64,000 bases of DNA, from contig NZ_VCEI01000021.1 in assembly GCF_005860765.1 (NCBI RefSeq), positions 186,001-250,000 of the forward strand, given 5' to 3'. The notes under the pieces were generated by a model. It was given only the letters and a program-made list of their open reading frames with translations, searched no databases and was not told the DNA's origin. Below, piece by piece: positions 17,681 to 62,050 of the stretch; within the stretch, counting starts at the first letter, position 1; each line of letters begins with the position of its first letter. The stretch comes from Dyadobacter sediminis (GTDB taxonomy: Bacteria > Bacteroidota > Bacteroidia > Cytophagales > Spirosomataceae). The position numbers were made by a program, and so were the translations under genes.

Positions 17681-17706
17681 TATTGTATTGTTGATTTTCT
17701 TTGTAC

Positions 17707-19629
17707 ATGGATTATTTTAAAAAACTTTCCGATCTGCTTAAAACCGAAAGGGAAGAAGACCGGCAATCTTACCTCAGACTGACTGAAACGACTTCTGTTT
17801 CCGAAAGGCGCGCCAACGGACTGGCATGGTACCCGGTTGCGATCAGAGGATCGGAAATGAGCCGGGGCGATTATCTGACAGTGGAAGTGGAGCGTACAAC
17901 GCATCAGGACATTTCGCATCAGCTACGTTTTGGAATGCCGGCTGTTCTTTTTTCCAATCATGATGCCAAGAAGGACAGGCTGGAAGGAATTATTTCACAC
18001 CAAAGCGGAAACCGGCTGAAAATTACCTTGCGTACCGACGAACTTCCGGAATGGTCGCGTGACGGAAAGCTTGGAATTGACGTACTGTTTGATGACAACA
18101 GCTATGATGAAATGCAGAATGCACTCAAAGCTGCCGGCATTCTTGCAGAAAACGATAAAGAAGGGCGCCTTGTGCAAATACTGACGGGTGAAAAAGCACC
18201 TGCTTTTCAAACCGATGTTCCTGAACTACGTATTCCAAAGCTGAACCCGTCCCAGCTGGAAGCAGTAAAGAAAATTGTATCGGCCAATGAACTGGCCATT
18301 GTCCACGGCCCGCCCGGAACCGGAAAAACAACAACATTGGTGCAGGCCATAAAAGCATTGATCAGCCGTGAACACAAGCAGATTCTGGTGGTGGCACCCA
18401 GTAATACAGCCGTGGACCTGTTGAGTGAAAAGCTTAGTGAGGAAGGGCTTCATGTACTCCGTGTCGGAAATCCGGTTCGGGTTTCAGAACGATTGATATC
18501 CCTGACGCTGGACAGTAAAATGAATGCGCATAGCCGTATGAAGGACGTTAAAGCACTTAAAAAGCAGGCTAACGAATTCAAGAATATGGCGCATAAATAC
18601 AAACGGAATTTTGGCAAAGCCGAGCGTGAACAGCGGAAAGCACTCTTTGACGAGGCGCACAAAATCATGAAGGAAGTCGGTACAATTGAACAATATGTTA
18701 TTGACGACCTTATTTCAAAAGCACAGGTAATTACCGCAACGCTGGTCGGGTCCAATCATTATACAGTCAGGAATCTGAAATTCGGGACAGTGATAATTGA
18801 TGAAGCCGGACAGGCACTCGAACCTGCCTGCTGGATACCCATACTGAAAGCTGGAAAAGTGATTATGGCCGGTGATCATTTACAGTTGCCGCCTACGATC
18901 AAATCTGCCGAAGCAGCCAGAAACGGCCTGAGTACAACTTTACTGGAAAAAAACGTTGCGGCACATCCTGAATCCGTCGTGCTGCTGGAAGAACAATACC
19001 GCATGCATGAAGTCATCATGGGCTTTTCTTCCAAAATATTTTATGAAAACAGGCTTGCAGCACACGCTTCGGTCGCGCACAGACTGCTGTTTCCGGAAGA
19101 TTCGCCATTGGCATTTATTGATACGGCGGGGTGCGGATTTGAGGAAAAAAAGGAAGGGACCAGTACGACAAATCCTGAGGAAGCGGCATTTCTGTTTAAA
19201 CATCTTTCACAGCTTGTTTCCGAATTTGTTCAGTCCAAGCCGGATATAACACCTGATATTTTAAAAGATTTTCCTACAGTAGCAATAATTTCCCCGTACA
19301 AGGAACAGATTAATATTCTTAAAGAACAATTGCTGCATGCGGATTCTTTACAACCTTACTTGTCCAGCATTTCAGTAAATACCATTGACAGTTTTCAGGG
19401 ACAGGAACGTGATATTGTTTATATAAGCATGACGAGGAGCAATGCAGAAGGCGAAATCGGGTTTTTAGCAGATATCCGCCGGATGAATGTAGCCATGACG
19501 CGGGCAAGGAAAAAACTGGTTGTCATCGGTGACAGCGCTACACTTTCACAATCGGCTTTTTACAGGGATTTTATTGAATATGCGGAGCAGTTTAATGCAT
19601 ATCAGAGTGCCTGGGAGTTCGTAGATTAA
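17707..19629 (+). CDS. SF1 DNA/RNA helicase of the IGHMBP2/Upf1-like type
   Basis: A 640-residue superfamily 1B helicase. Residues about 1-170 form the N-terminal beta-barrel region found in SMUBP-2-type proteins. Motif I (Walker A) is VHGPPGTGKTTTLVQAI, motif Ia VVAPSNTAVDLL, motif II VIIDEAGQALEP, motif III MAGDHLQLPPTIKS, motif IV-V VNTIDSFQGQERDIVYISMT and motif VI RRMNVAMTRARKKLVVIGD. A Lys-rich helical insert (KQANEFKNMAHKYKRNFGKA) is the stalk. Such enzymes translocate 5'-3' on nucleic acid; the bacterial role is uncharacterised. The ATG at 17707 is preferred over the TTG at 17701. A repeat array begins 20 bp after the stop. Confidence 0.93.
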   Translation: MDYFKKLSDLLKTEREEDRQSYLRLTETTSVSERRANGLAWYPVAIRGSEMSRGDYLTVEVERTTHQDISHQLRFGMPAVLFSNHDAKKDRLEGIISHQSGNRLKITLRTDELPEWSRDGKLGIDVLFDDNSYDEMQNALKAAGILAENDKEGRLVQILTGEKAPAFQTDVPELRIPKLNPSQLEAVKKIVSANELAIVHGPPGTGKTTTLVQAIKALISREHKQILVVAPSNTAVDLLSEKLSEEGLHVLRVGNPVRVSERLISLTLDSKMNAHSRMKDVKALKKQANEFKNMAHKYKRNFGKAEREQRKALFDEAHKIMKEVGTIEQYVIDDLISKAQVITATLVGSNHYTVRNLKFGTVIIDEAGQALEPACWIPILKAGKVIMAGDHLQLPPTIKSAEAARNGLSTTLLEKNVAAHPESVVLLEEQYRMHEVIMGFSSKIFYENRLAAHASVAHRLLFPEDSPLAFIDTAGCGFEEKKEGTSTTNPEEAAFLFKHLSQLVSEFVQSKPDITPDILKDFPTVAIISPYKEQINILKEQLLHADSLQPYLSSISVNTIDSFQGQERDIVYISMTRSNAEGEIGFLADIRRMNVAMTRARKKLVVIGDSATLSQSAFYRDFIEYAEQFNAYQSAWEFVD

Positions 19630-19649: not shown

Positions 19650-20399
19650 CCTGTTTATAGCAACGGGTTGTTGGGGGCATTTGATTATGCAAGGAGGCTC
19701 CGCAGGAGCCTTGCATAATGCGAACTTTGGACGTGCTACAAACAGGGCGCTCCTCCGGAGCGGAGCGGATGCCGCCATGGAGTGGTACCCTGTTTATAGC
19801 AAAGGATTATTCGGTGCATAATGCGAACTTTGAACGTGCTACAAACAGGGCGCTCCTCCGGAGCGGAGCGGATGCCGCCACGGAGTGGTACCCTGTTTAT
19901 AGCAAAGGATTATTCGGTGCATAATGCGAACTTTGGACGTGCTACAAACAGGACGCTCCTCCGGAGCGGAGCGGATGCCGCCACGGAATGGTACGCTGTT
20001 TATAGCAAAGGATTATTCGGTGGACTATGCGAACTTTGGACGTGCTACAAACAGGGCGCTCCTCGGGATCGGAGCGGATGCCGCCACGGAGTGGTACCCT
20101 GTTTATAGCAAAGGATTATTCGGTGCATAATGCGAACTTTGAACGTGCTACAAACAGGGCGCTCCTCCAGAACGGAGCGGATGCCACCACGGAGTGGTAC
20201 CCTGTTTATAGCAAAGGATTATTCGGTGCATAATGCGAACTTTGGACGTGCTACAAACAGGGCGCTCCTCCGGAGCGGAGCGGATGCTGCCACGGAGTGG
20301 CACCCTGTTTATAGCAAAGGATTATTCGGTGCATTATATTGCAAGGCTCCGGAGGAGCCTCCTGATTGTTGCTTTAAATGCATATTTTCTACAAACAGG
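19650..20399. repeat. Modular palindromic repeat array, 103-bp period, seven modules
   Basis: Seven modules each begin with CCTGTTTATAGC (one copy GCTGTTTATAGC, 19995) and end with CTACAAACAGG, its near-perfect inverse. The two outer modules are 97 and 96 bp (19650-19746 and 20304-20399) and carry their own GC-rich hairpins (19684-19719; AGGCTCC/GGAGCCT at 20344-20360). Five inner modules are 61 bp and contain the AGGATTATTCGGTGCATAAT core. Six 42-bp linkers between modules hold a CGCTCC/GGAGCG and a CCAC/GTGG stem. These lengths sum exactly to 750 bp. Copies differ by a few point changes. The period is not a multiple of 3, so the open frames found here (ATG at each repeat, ending at a TAATG overlap) are read in two frames of the same unit and are not considered genes. 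Confidence 0.92.
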
Positions 20400-20426
20400 C
20401 TCCTGCGCAGCCTTGATCTATAAGTT

Positions 20427-23402
20427 TTAAATCATTGCTTCCCATAAAATTTCTGCCGGATGCATGGCTTTTCTTCCGGTTCCGTCATGGATTTGATGGC
20501 GGCAGCTTGTTCCGGGCGCGGCAATGATTACTTCCTCAGGTTGCTGGCGGACGGCCGGGAAAAGTACCAGTTCTCCAATTTGCATGGAAATATCGTAATG
20601 CTCTTTTTCATACCCGAAAGATCCCGCCATTCCGCAGCAACCTGAAGGAATCAGTTGGACCGTATAATTTTCCGGAAGTGAAAGCATTTTCTTGGTCGGA
20701 ACCATGCTTGAAATGGCTTTTTGCTGGCAATGTCCGTGCAGTTTGATGAGGCGTTTTTCCTTTGTAAAGCTGGCTTTTGAAATATGTTTCAGTTCCATTT
20801 CTCTTGCAATGAACTCGTCAAACTGAAGTGCGTTCTGCGCCAGTTTCTTGGCTTCTTCCACGAGTTCGTCGCTGACAAGATCGGGATATTCGTCGCGGAA
20901 AGTCAGAATAGCAGACGGTTCGATGCCGACCAAAGGCGTATCGTAGGAAATAATATCTTTTAGCAAACGGATGTTTTCTTCTGCAATTTTCTTGGCATCT
21001 TTTAATAAACCTTTGGAAAGCTGAGGCCGTCCGGACGGGCCGTGATTTGGAATAACCACTTCATAGCCGAGTTTTTCCAATGTGAAAATGGATTTTTTGC
21101 CTATTTCAACATCATTATAATTGGTGAATTCATCACAGAACAGATAAACGAGGCGTGCACCTGACTTTACATGGTTGTTTTTTCTCTGTTCGTACCACTT
21201 TTTCAGCGTTGTACTATGCAGTAATGGCATTGTGCGTTCCGGGTGAAAACCAACCATGCGGTTTGCCATTTTACGCAGCGGTGCATTTTTGAACACCATA
21301 TTATATGCCCACGGAACATAACTGGCAATGCCGGTCATTTTTGAAAAATTCCCGACCAGCCATGATCGCATCGGAACGCCGTGGACGTCATGATATTGCT
21401 GCAGAAATTCCATTTTCAGTTTAGCCACGTCTACATTGGAAGGGCATTCTCCTTTGCAGCCTTTACAGGCAAGGCATAAATCGTAAACCTCCTTGATTTC
21501 TTCATGGTCAAACCGATTTTCTTTTGGAGAACGCGTCAGCATTTCACGCAGGATATTGGCGCGGCCTCGGGTTGTGTCTTTTTCATTCCGCGTTGCCATA
21601 AAGCTCGGGCACATGGTTCCGCCGCTCATCTCCGTCTTGCGACAGTCGCCCGAACCGTTGCATTGCTCGGCATGCTGAAGAACATCCTGATCGTGAAAGC
21701 GGAAATAAGTTTTGAACTCAGGCGTTTTCTGATCGGCTTCGTACCGCAGGAAAGTATCCATTGGCGCAGTATCCACAATTTTGCCGGGATTAAAAATATT
21801 ATTCGGGTCCCACGTTTTCTTGATTTCCTTGAACAGCCCGTAATTATGTTCACCAACCATTTTCGGGATAAATTCTCCACGAAGCCGTCCGTCGCCGTGC
21901 TCGCCGGATAATGAACCGTCGTATTTTTTAACCAGATCGGCAATTTCTTCTGCAATCATCCGGAACTGGCGGTGACCTTCACTGGTTTTCAGATTGATAA
22001 TCGGACGCAAGTGGATTTCACCGGTTCCGGCATGTGCATAGTGAACAGCCGACATGCCGTGCTTCTTCAGAATCACATTGAAATCACGGATATAATCAGG
22101 CTGATCGTATACGTCCACAGCGGTATCTTCAATAACGGCCACGGCTTTATCATCGCCCGGAATGTTGGCCAGCAAGCCAAGACCGGCTTTTCGCAGGGAC
22201 CAGATTTTCTTGGTGTCTTCACCAAAGAGCAGCGGATAATGAAAACCGATTCCGGCTTCCTGCAGTTCTTTTGTCATTTCCGCAGCAAGTGACTCCACTT
22301 CGTCCTTTGTTTCGCGCGAAAGATCCACAACCAGAATAGCGGGAAATTTTCCATCCGGCTTATTTTTTACAAAAAAGGCATTTTTCTTTTGCTCTGCATT
22401 GGTTGTAGCGCATTCCAGCACATAATCGTCGATCAGTTCCACGGCATGCGGCTGATATTTCAGTGTCAGGATTGTTGCCCGCAAAGCTTCATCGATGGTG
22501 TCGCAATGCACGCAAACGAGTCCCGGCGTTCTGGGCGGAAGCGGAACAAGGTTTAATTTTATTTCTGTTAAAAAGCAAAGTGTTCCTTCCGAGCCGGCAA
22601 TCAGACTGCACATATTAAAAGGTTTTGCAGCTTCCTTTGCTTCCAGATAGGGTTCCGTGTTGAGCAGCATATCCAGCGCGTAGCCGGTATTCCTTCTTTC
22701 AATACTTGGCTTCGGAAAATTTTTCCTGATCTCAGCCTGATTTTCAGGCAAGTTCAGGATCTCATCTGTTTTCAGGTATATCTTATCAAGAAGCGTTGGG
22801 CTGCCGTTTTTCTGCTGCGCATGGCCAATCAGATTTTGAAAATCCTTTCCTGCAATACTTTTAAACTCCACTTCCGAGCCGTCCGCCAGAATTGCTTTTA
22901 CTTCCAGCGTATGTTCCCTGGCACTTCCGTAAACGATCGAATTGGAACCGCAGGAATTATTGCCGACCATTCCACCGATCATGGCGCGGTTGGCTGTCGA
23001 GGTTTCCGGTCCGAAATACAGGCCGTAAGGTTTGAGGGCCATGTTCAGTTCATCACGCACAACGCCGGGCTGCACACGCACCCATTTCTCCTCTGCGTTA
23101 ACTTCCAGTATTTTGGTGAAAGTTCTGGAAACATCCACGACAATTCCGCTTCCTACAACCTGTCCTGCAAGTGAAGTTCCGGCTGTACGCGGAATCAGCG
23201 AAATGCTGTTTGCCGTTGCGTAGGAAATCAGCGTTTTGATGTCTTTTATGCTTTTGGGCATTGCTACGGCCAGCGGCATTTCGCGGTAAGCAGAAGCATC
23301 GGTAGCGTAAAGGGTCCGCATGGTATTGTCAAAATACAGATCACCTTCAAGTTGTCTGGCAAGTAAGCTTAAATCAGAATTGGTTACAGACGGCAATGTC
23401 AT
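20427..23402 (-). CDS. FAD-linked oxidase / Fe-S oxidoreductase fusion (D-lactate/glycolate dehydrogenase-like)
   Basis: A 991-residue cytoplasmic or membrane-associated dehydrogenase. Residues about 45-230 are an FAD-binding PCMH domain (PRTAGTSLAGQVVGSGIVVD; MVGNNSCGSNSIVYGS) and about 240-540 the FAD-linked oxidase C-terminal domain (AGTGEIHLRPIINL; GSLSGEHGDGRLRG). A ferredoxin-like segment follows with CNGSGDCRKTEMSGGTMCPS and CLACKGCKGECPSNVDV (about 580-680), then a glycolate-oxidase Fe-S type CCG region (SGCCGMAGSFGYEKEHY). The family oxidises D-lactate, D-2-hydroxyglutarate or similar 2-hydroxyacids to the oxoacid and passes electrons to quinone. The ATG at 23402 begins the conserved region; the frame is open 16 codons further. 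The stop lies 27 bp from the repeat array. Confidence 0.93.
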   Translation of the reverse strand: MTLPSVTNSDLSLLARQLEGDLYFDNTMRTLYATDASAYREMPLAVAMPKSIKDIKTLISYATANSISLIPRTAGTSLAGQVVGSGIVVDVSRTFTKILEVNAEEKWVRVQPGVVRDELNMALKPYGLYFGPETSTANRAMIGGMVGNNSCGSNSIVYGSAREHTLEVKAILADGSEVEFKSIAGKDFQNLIGHAQQKNGSPTLLDKIYLKTDEILNLPENQAEIRKNFPKPSIERRNTGYALDMLLNTEPYLEAKEAAKPFNMCSLIAGSEGTLCFLTEIKLNLVPLPPRTPGLVCVHCDTIDEALRATILTLKYQPHAVELIDDYVLECATTNAEQKKNAFFVKNKPDGKFPAILVVDLSRETKDEVESLAAEMTKELQEAGIGFHYPLLFGEDTKKIWSLRKAGLGLLANIPGDDKAVAVIEDTAVDVYDQPDYIRDFNVILKKHGMSAVHYAHAGTGEIHLRPIINLKTSEGHRQFRMIAEEIADLVKKYDGSLSGEHGDGRLRGEFIPKMVGEHNYGLFKEIKKTWDPNNIFNPGKIVDTAPMDTFLRYEADQKTPEFKTYFRFHDQDVLQHAEQCNGSGDCRKTEMSGGTMCPSFMATRNEKDTTRGRANILREMLTRSPKENRFDHEEIKEVYDLCLACKGCKGECPSNVDVAKLKMEFLQQYHDVHGVPMRSWLVGNFSKMTGIASYVPWAYNMVFKNAPLRKMANRMVGFHPERTMPLLHSTTLKKWYEQRKNNHVKSGARLVYLFCDEFTNYNDVEIGKKSIFTLEKLGYEVVIPNHGPSGRPQLSKGLLKDAKKIAEENIRLLKDIISYDTPLVGIEPSAILTFRDEYPDLVSDELVEEAKKLAQNALQFDEFIAREMELKHISKASFTKEKRLIKLHGHCQQKAISSMVPTKKMLSLPENYTVQLIPSGCCGMAGSFGYEKEHYDISMQIGELVLFPAVRQQPEEVIIAAPGTSCRHQIHDGTGRKAMHPAEILWEAMI

Positions 23403-23431
23403 AAAAGTATTATACTGGAAAATAATGACTG

Positions 23432-23439
23432 CAAAGTTA
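23432..23439 (-). promoter_or_regulatory. Candidate -7 element of the FAD/Fe-S oxidoreductase gene
   Basis: On the minus strand this reads TAACTTTG, an exact TAnnTTTG match about 30 bp before the ATG at 23402. A TTG lies about 24 bp upstream of it, slightly far for the -33 element. Confidence 0.5.
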
Positions 23440-23552
23440 CGCACAAGCAAGATGGTTTTCCAGCAATATTTTCATACGTTATAATTCACCGTCCATCAAG
23501 CCAAGTGAAGGCTTGATTATGTAACCGAACAGTCCTGTTTTGTATTTTTCAA

Positions 23553-62003: not shown

Positions 62004-62050
62004 CTAACAGCTAACAGCTAACAGCTAACAGCTAACAGCTAACAGCTAAC
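62004..62050. repeat. Heptanucleotide microsatellite, 6.7 copies of CTAACAG
   Basis: CTAACAG is repeated six times without error from 62004 to 62045, plus CTAAC to 62050. It begins 4 bp after the terminator T-run and abuts the stop codon (TAG on the minus strand, 62050-62052) of the CBM48-type gene. Perfect copies suggest recent or ongoing slippage. Confidence 0.95.

Follow-up and report, generated by a model that had tools for sequence, protein, structure and literature searches.

Repeats of the REP type, which assemble into BIMEs or REPINs, together with TnpA-REP (RAYT) proteins constitute the REPtrons of E. coli, Pseudomonas and Stenotrophomonas. These systems (PMC2817692, PMC6006769, PMC8266576) consist of short GC-rich intergenic palindromes with compensatory stem changes, arranged as inverted pairs and in regular clusters, and of a Y1 transposase gene that is present once, does not move and has the repeats on its flanks. 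According to PMC6006769, canonical REPs carry GTAG or GTGG 0-2 nt 5′ of the hairpin. PMC3733652 presents GTAG- and CGTC-tagged REPs as well as TIR/TIRYT as intergenic elements that form dimers and tandem clusters and frequently lie between genes in convergent or unidirectional orientation, and PMC6006769 and PMC8266576 describe the guides of IS608 and the cleavage by TnpA-REP at CT. Moreover, the 2018 survey (PMC6006769) set apart subclass 1.2, whose Y1 proteins show neither IS properties nor an association with REPs. The subclass is defined by the motif Y---Q--HH, described with DH[IV]H and entered as 'no' under REP in a table.

The window analyzed here, the whole stretch of 64,000 nucleotides from Dyadobacter sediminis (genome G000; contig NZ_VCEI01000021.1, positions 186,001 to 250,000), contains a 750-bp array that is real and of a known kind, namely a REP cluster with a Y1 enzyme. 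However, the repeat is built differently, and the enzyme belongs to a subclass not reported together with repeats. A search of the literature, largely limited to sources other than subscription journals and bioRxiv preprints, yielded no description of this repeat family.

The array (19650-20399) is flanked by two convergent genes, an AAA_11/AAA_12 helicase gene on the plus strand (17701-19629) and an FAD-oxidase/4Fe-4S gene on the minus strand (20427-23450), as a preliminary description had noted. A base-level recount reproduced the module arithmetic given there exactly: an outer left module of 97 bp (19650-19746), five inner modules of 61 bp (19789-19849, 19892-19952, 19995-20055, 20098-20158 and 20201-20261) and an outer right module of 96 bp (20304-20399) are joined by six 42-bp linkers, amounting to 750 bp. 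Correspondingly, TRF returned the same inner period of 103 bp with 6.0 copies, 94% matches and 0% indels. Tandem duplication of a 103-bp unit explains this arithmetic, and no further cause is required. Any two of the five inner units differ at 3-9 of their 103 bases, indicating that they are not plain assembly copies. Two open frames of 95 and 97 aa cross the array (19821-20108 and 20130-20423) and could become annotated as spurious proteins. Elsewhere in the window, the heptamer CTAACAG forms a perfect 7-bp tandem repeat of 6.7 copies (62004-62050).

The module boundaries of the preliminary description require revision. The linker together with its two arms constitutes an inverted element pair, and the 61-bp module separates one pair from the next as a spacer. 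In total, the array comprises 14 feet, i.e. copies of a short conserved motif specified below, which form six inverted pairs plus one foot at each end. Neither the array nor the pairs are assigned to a strand. The first pair (19736-19799) spans 64 bp in the order foot-hairpin/hairpin-foot, and is followed by pairs at 19839-19902, which folds as single-stranded DNA with a z-score of -3.4, at 19942-20005, one arm of which reads GCTGTTTATAG, and at 20045-20108, 20148-20211 and 20251-20314. The foot at 19995-20005 is the only one in the array with a mismatch. Examples of the GC-rich first hairpin (H1) are found at 19748-19767 (minus strand), where it adjoins a minus-strand foot and is terminator-like by a consensus scan, and at 19770-19787 (plus strand), where it adjoins a plus-strand foot. 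The outer modules each contain a second hairpin (H2; 19695-19711 on the left and 20344-20360 on the right, neither with an assigned strand). With up to two mismatches, CTACAAACAGG occurs 40 times in the window versus 12.9 expected and CCTGTTTATAGC 22 times versus 3.9, numbers reached in none of 100 shuffles.

Dispersal within the genome, named as a check in the preliminary description, was observed, as the 103-bp unit matches 170 places in G000. The stronger matches, which were listed, fall into at least 33 clusters with two or more feet; 33 stretches around these matches were taken, L049 and L060 with fewer than two feet were left out, and the remaining 31 yielded 33 clusters. None of the 33 lies wholly within a called ORF, where ORFs located mostly inside clusters had been dropped beforehand and some ORF ends overlap clusters. 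The period varies by locus (about 52, 57, 103, 116 and 161 bp, among others), so that the clusters appear to have been amplified locally and separately from each other. As in the REP/BIME systems, the regular clusters contain inverted pairs; L050 is among the clusters arranged as direct tandem repeats instead.

The repeat unit has the structure hairpin(6-3-6)-N-CCTGTTT[ACG]TAG-N~25-hairpin. Searching for the foot CCTGTTT[ACG]TAG with at most one mismatch revealed 208 feet in the G000 clusters, and the motif is nearly invariant except for its eighth base, which is G, A or C. An upstream hairpin with at least five of six Watson-Crick pairs at a fixed loop of 3 and an offset of 1 precedes 173 of the 208 feet, and some upstream hairpin is present at 186, compared with a mean of 22 and a maximum of 39 in 50 mononucleotide shuffles. 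About 25 nt past the foot we observed the second hairpin at 128 of the 208 feet (mean 13, at most 19 in 30 shuffles), often trailed by (N)CCT, with CCT located within five bases in 75 of these 128 cases.

The stems of the upstream hairpins covary, a feature that the preliminary description had suggested looking for, and thus display the compensatory changes known from REP/BIME. Among 108 distinct hairpins, 143 cells are changed on both sides, whereas 1000 shuffles gave a mean of 51 and never more than 73; the paired cells amount to 81%, as compared to at most 66%, although these controls do not fully remove the kinship of copies within clusters. Two of the four covariation measures did not discriminate, namely double-change pairs (6 vs 5.5) and pair types (23 vs a maximum of 23). 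When 165 rows were aligned in the true register, 214 doubly changed cells were counted, whereas sliding the partners by 1-3 columns gave 31-40.

Taken together, the family resembles the known REP systems in being composed of short GC-rich intergenic palindromes with compensatory stems, inverted pairs and regular clusters. It likewise shares the intergenic location, the dimers and tandem clusters and a trend towards convergent genes with the elements covered by PMC3733652. In contrast to canonical REPs, the foot follows the hairpin on its 3′ side, which on the opposite strand places it 5′ as CTANAAACAGG; moreover, the unit has no visible CGTC tag, with GTAG away from the stem in most copies. 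A hairpin directly after the foot, corresponding to the placement of GTAG/GTGG 0-2 nt 5′ of a stem, was found for 10 of the 208 feet, four of which are located at the locus of the transposase itself (L059, 3600-3950), where the feet read CCTGCTTGTAG and the hairpin follows at once in the classical REP order. This order is also seen for three of ten feet at L147 and three of six at L156.

G000 harbors two Y1 transposase genes according to Pfam. One of them, encoding a TnpA of a lineage termed clade A (G000:C26:540203-540547), stands between feet with an array directly downstream. The protein passes the IS200 model (75.6 versus a cut-off of 55 bits) and fails the NCBIfam model REP_Tyr_transpos (32.8 versus 80 bits), which distinguishes it from RAYTs by this cut-off. 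All eight PDB relatives that a sequence comparison yielded at E < 1e-3 bear the name of a transposase, one of them that of ISHp608, and others are from ISDra2. As in IS608 and ISDra2 of the IS200/IS605 family, hairpins lie near possible cut sites.

A TnpA protein of this type is encoded in 47 of 48 Dyadobacter genomes, with clade A (71-100% identity) being present in 14. It forms one branch with a support of 100/99 in a tree of 72 proteins built from few columns. In each of the 14 genomes there is a single match at E 1e-60, a limit drawn after a gap between 1e-73 and 1e-52 had been seen. Two or more feet with at most one mismatch are present at 13 of the 14 clade A loci and one at L155 (range 1 to 15); thus, as in REPtrons, a single-copy Y1 gene is accompanied by at least one foot at all 14 loci. 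The counts for L146, L147 and L158 each include one match in the neighboring glnA-like gene; this foot-like match at a fixed offset, also seen in nine of 12 genomes without clade A, was dismissed as a coding coincidence. At other TnpA loci, from which most matches below about 40% identity were left out, a foot match occurs at 13 of 55 and two or more at one of 55, with none of their 14 matches being exact. Control windows, a set that leaves out the D. flavalbus array L070, gave a match at 19 of 75 and two or more at three of 75. An earlier count had likewise yielded 14 of 14 clade A loci as compared to two of 17 other TnpA loci.

At least one of the glnA-like and SDR neighbors is conserved at 13 of the 14 clade A loci and both are present at 11, with L157 having neither. 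The retention of the neighbors indicates that the clade A gene stays put and is inherited; together with its single copy per genome, it sets clade A apart from IS200/IS605. Moreover, we observed no sign of copies carrying the TnpA gene along. In terms of relative abundance, the median number of pattern copies, counted including overlapping matches and with a pattern that covers CTAG as well as RTAG feet, is 29.5 in the 14 genomes with clade A versus 1.5 in the remaining 34 (p 5e-6, without correction for kinship). Nine of these 34 genomes nevertheless contain at least 10 pattern matches, the maximum being 51 in G014.

The suggestion that palindromes resembling CCTGTTTGTAGC occur elsewhere held within Dyadobacter; for other Bacteroidota, its scope is limited to four TnpA loci from three other genera. 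Of these, L177 is adjoined by ten matches to CCTGTT[AG]ATAG, and the other three have none to two. Judged by eye, the distribution of foot variants agrees with the TnpA tree, as exemplified by L177.

The second Y1 gene of G000 was considered as a cognate for the repeat, since an array is located about 4 kb away, and was rejected because its own flanks contain other palindromes and no foot. In this region (L064; G000:C26:129467-132811), the flanks of the gene at 1408-1947 hold TCCCGTCAGGGA and GCCGT..ACGGC palindromes, which probably represent a second repeat family with an enzyme of its own.

The site of the clade A gene was also inspected in 12 genomes without it, namely all nine that have at least ten pattern matches and three that have at most one. 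In all 12, the glnA-like and SDR genes are close together, and the site occurs in two states besides the one occupied by the enzyme. It is empty in G001, G009, G010, G012 and G031, with the neighbors 38-47 bp apart and no foot, and holds repeats only in G006, G008, G011, G014, G026, G044 and G046, with gaps of 136-346 bp containing hairpins and one or two feet. The gap comprises an inverted pair in G008, G014, G026, G044 and G046, whereas G011 has one element there, the foot of which is a variant. In G006 (L261), the foot CCTGTTTCTAGAAACAGG is a perfect palindrome, i.e. two feet sharing bases. The basic unit of hairpin, foot, about 25 nt and hairpin is plainest in G011 and G006. Seven of the nine repeat-bearing genomes without clade A would be accounted for if the enzyme had been lost and relics had remained. 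However, G012 and G031 carry 14 and 10 pattern copies elsewhere although their site is empty, which does not agree with simple loss. When empty and filled sites were compared for terminal inverted repeats with a target duplication, as in MITEs, the junctions were diverged and no duplication was defined.

On the basis of its motifs and its IS200-like scores, clade A TnpA is assigned to subclass 1.2. The G000 protein displays the set DHVH, WQ and YILNQEEHH, and the motif Y---Q--HH is found in 13 of the 14 clade A proteins, with L159 departing from it (this reading covers 72 of 73 TnpA rows, without L247). These features agree with the description of subclass 1.2 in PMC6006769, which lists the motifs WQ, Y---Q--HH and H.H, the occurrence in Bacteroidetes and a low copy number. 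In contrast to the subclass as published there, clade A is tied to abundant hairpin repeats, and only seven of its members contain DHVH, the other half having DHTH or DHAH.

Flanking repeats are not confined to clade A. A 12-mer is repeated three or more times in the flanks of 37 of 55 other TnpA loci as compared to six of 104 control windows, which here include the D. flavalbus array L070. In particular, the flanks of clade B loci (L163, L167, L172, L174, L161, L171 and others) have repeats of their own, for instance hairpin-AACGTTTATAGC and AGATGCCAGAGGCATCT-AACGTTTATAGC at L163. A hairpin followed by TTT[ACG]TAG was tried as a core of the entire subclass; as it occurs at only 28 of 73 TnpA loci (five for the reversed control), this core is not common to the whole subclass. 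On balance, we lean towards the view that the subclass 1.2 TnpAs as a whole constitute a separate class of REPtrons in Bacteroidota with lineage-specific two-hairpin repeats, whose foot lies across the stem from that of classical REPs; in that case, an IS200-type transposase would have been domesticated here either independently or as an intermediate.

The copy number at the orthologous site was addressed in D. flavalbus (G013), the nearest named match for the helicase next to the array (94%). At the same locus, this species contains a related array, the unit of which is 192 bp long and comprises four hairpins. The left outer module plus linker aligns with this unit at 115 of 140 positions, with one 53-bp gap between two similar hairpins besides smaller gaps; the gap coincides with the left H2 hairpin, which looks like a hybrid of two ancestral hairpins. 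The right outer module matches at 90 of 106 positions; for the inner unit, the alignment of which requires larger gaps, the value is 88 of 108. The alignment scores of 137, 109 and 90 (left, right and inner) exceed the best of 200 shuffles (41, 44 and 37). In our interpretation, the outer modules are what is left of a larger ancestral unit, whereas the inner 103-bp unit arose from it by deletion and multiplied in the G000 lineage, which would explain the difference between outer and inner modules.

Alignment and synteny allowed 31 array loci of G000 to be placed in D. flavalbus, and arrays are present at 30 of these. The array of L038 is absent there, and its flanks have diverged as well; with a presence/absence difference at one of 31 loci, recent movement is barely seen. 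The arrays turn over in place, as 25 of the 29 cluster pairs compared have unequal numbers of feet, the exceptions being L032, L039, L057 and L063. This comparison leaves out L051, L055 and L056, the counterparts of which are cut or rearranged, and the assignment of the latter two rests on alignment to the arrays of L209. L055 and L056 (G000:C26, about 64.5 and 74 kb) are about 9.5 kb apart and their counterparts in L209 less than 1 kb, so that 8-9 kb between the arrays differ, perhaps by recombination. L191, a candidate site specific to D. flavalbus, could be aligned without interruption to G000 and was discarded as a chance match.

Considering these data, we regard it as likely that the array is a BIME-like cluster of a dispersed, non-canonical REP family that has a subclass 1.2 TnpA of clade A as its cognate enzyme and was amplified in place, which is consistent with the REP/MITE-like element envisaged in the preliminary description. 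In this scenario, clade A TnpA would bind the hairpin in single-stranded DNA and cut near the foot. Binding and cutting would allow the elements to move rarely and the pairs to multiply or shrink in place, with the inner second hairpins of the window array having presumably been lost by deletion. The enzyme would thereby mobilize the repeat, and it would be TnpA rather than slippage or recombination that drives the amplification.

Alternatively, the arrays could be bidirectional transcription terminators or 3′-end stabilizers, for which TnpA was merely the source long ago. In support of this, 12 of the 33 clusters lie between convergent genes as compared to 10 of 87 neighboring gaps (p 0.003, with a crude ORF caller), terminator-like combinations of a hairpin and CCTGTTTGT occur 12 times in the region versus 1.2 in shuffles, and arrays are also present at 30 of 31 loci in D. 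flavalbus. Yet five of the 33 clusters are located between divergent genes, and the copy number and even the architecture of the unit change between sister species. Moreover, the hairpins of 165 distinct sites contain 35 G-T and 38 A-C mispairs, and so lack the excess of G-T expected under selection on RNA. These similar numbers indicate that neither strand is favored as RNA and speak for selection on DNA. A host function as the main explanation thus appears rather unlikely to us, but the bias towards convergent genes and the terminator-like hairpins would be compatible with an additional role in transcript termination. A role as protein-binding or DNA-structure scaffold, which had also been proposed, may be another side role of the array.

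We are similarly doubtful that the array is an inert palindromic repeat expanded by slippage or recombination, with a purely historical link to TnpA. The near-identical inner units arranged head to tail and the retention of repeats in some genomes without the enzyme are compatible with plain expansion, as are the periods that vary by locus, since amplification with a fixed period also fits slippage or unequal crossing-over. However, the feet are almost invariant while the stems covary, and the foot variants track the TnpA tree by eye, which is better explained by continuing recognition.

A structured RNA, transcribed from the array as a chain of multi-branched domains, had been offered as a further possibility. 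The 61-bp module folds as RNA with a z-score of -2.5, and six promoter-like sites were found in the region versus 1.1 in shuffles. However, there is no Rfam match at gathering scores, the mispairs reveal no strand preference, and the unit, the copy number and the spacer differ between sister species, rendering this explanation very improbable. The promoter-like matches recur in the inner modules (19793-20234) and consist of TTTATA of the foot, 18 nt and CATAAT. Finally, an assembly artefact, a concern raised at the outset as tandem arrays are prone to misassembly and G000 comprises 33 contigs, is scarcely credible in view of the related array at the same place in the separate D. flavalbus assembly, the differences among the copies and the recurrence of the family in at least 33 clusters.

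With the array understood as a REP cluster of clade A TnpA, a search for REPs that demands GTRG 5′ of the stem will miss families of this kind. The array points to the substrate of subclass 1.2 Y1 proteins. Moreover, the sister species provide a natural series of the TnpA site, from empty to repeats only to repeats plus enzyme, with arrays that turn over in place, and consequently the question of how REPs arise and multiply becomes testable within one genus.
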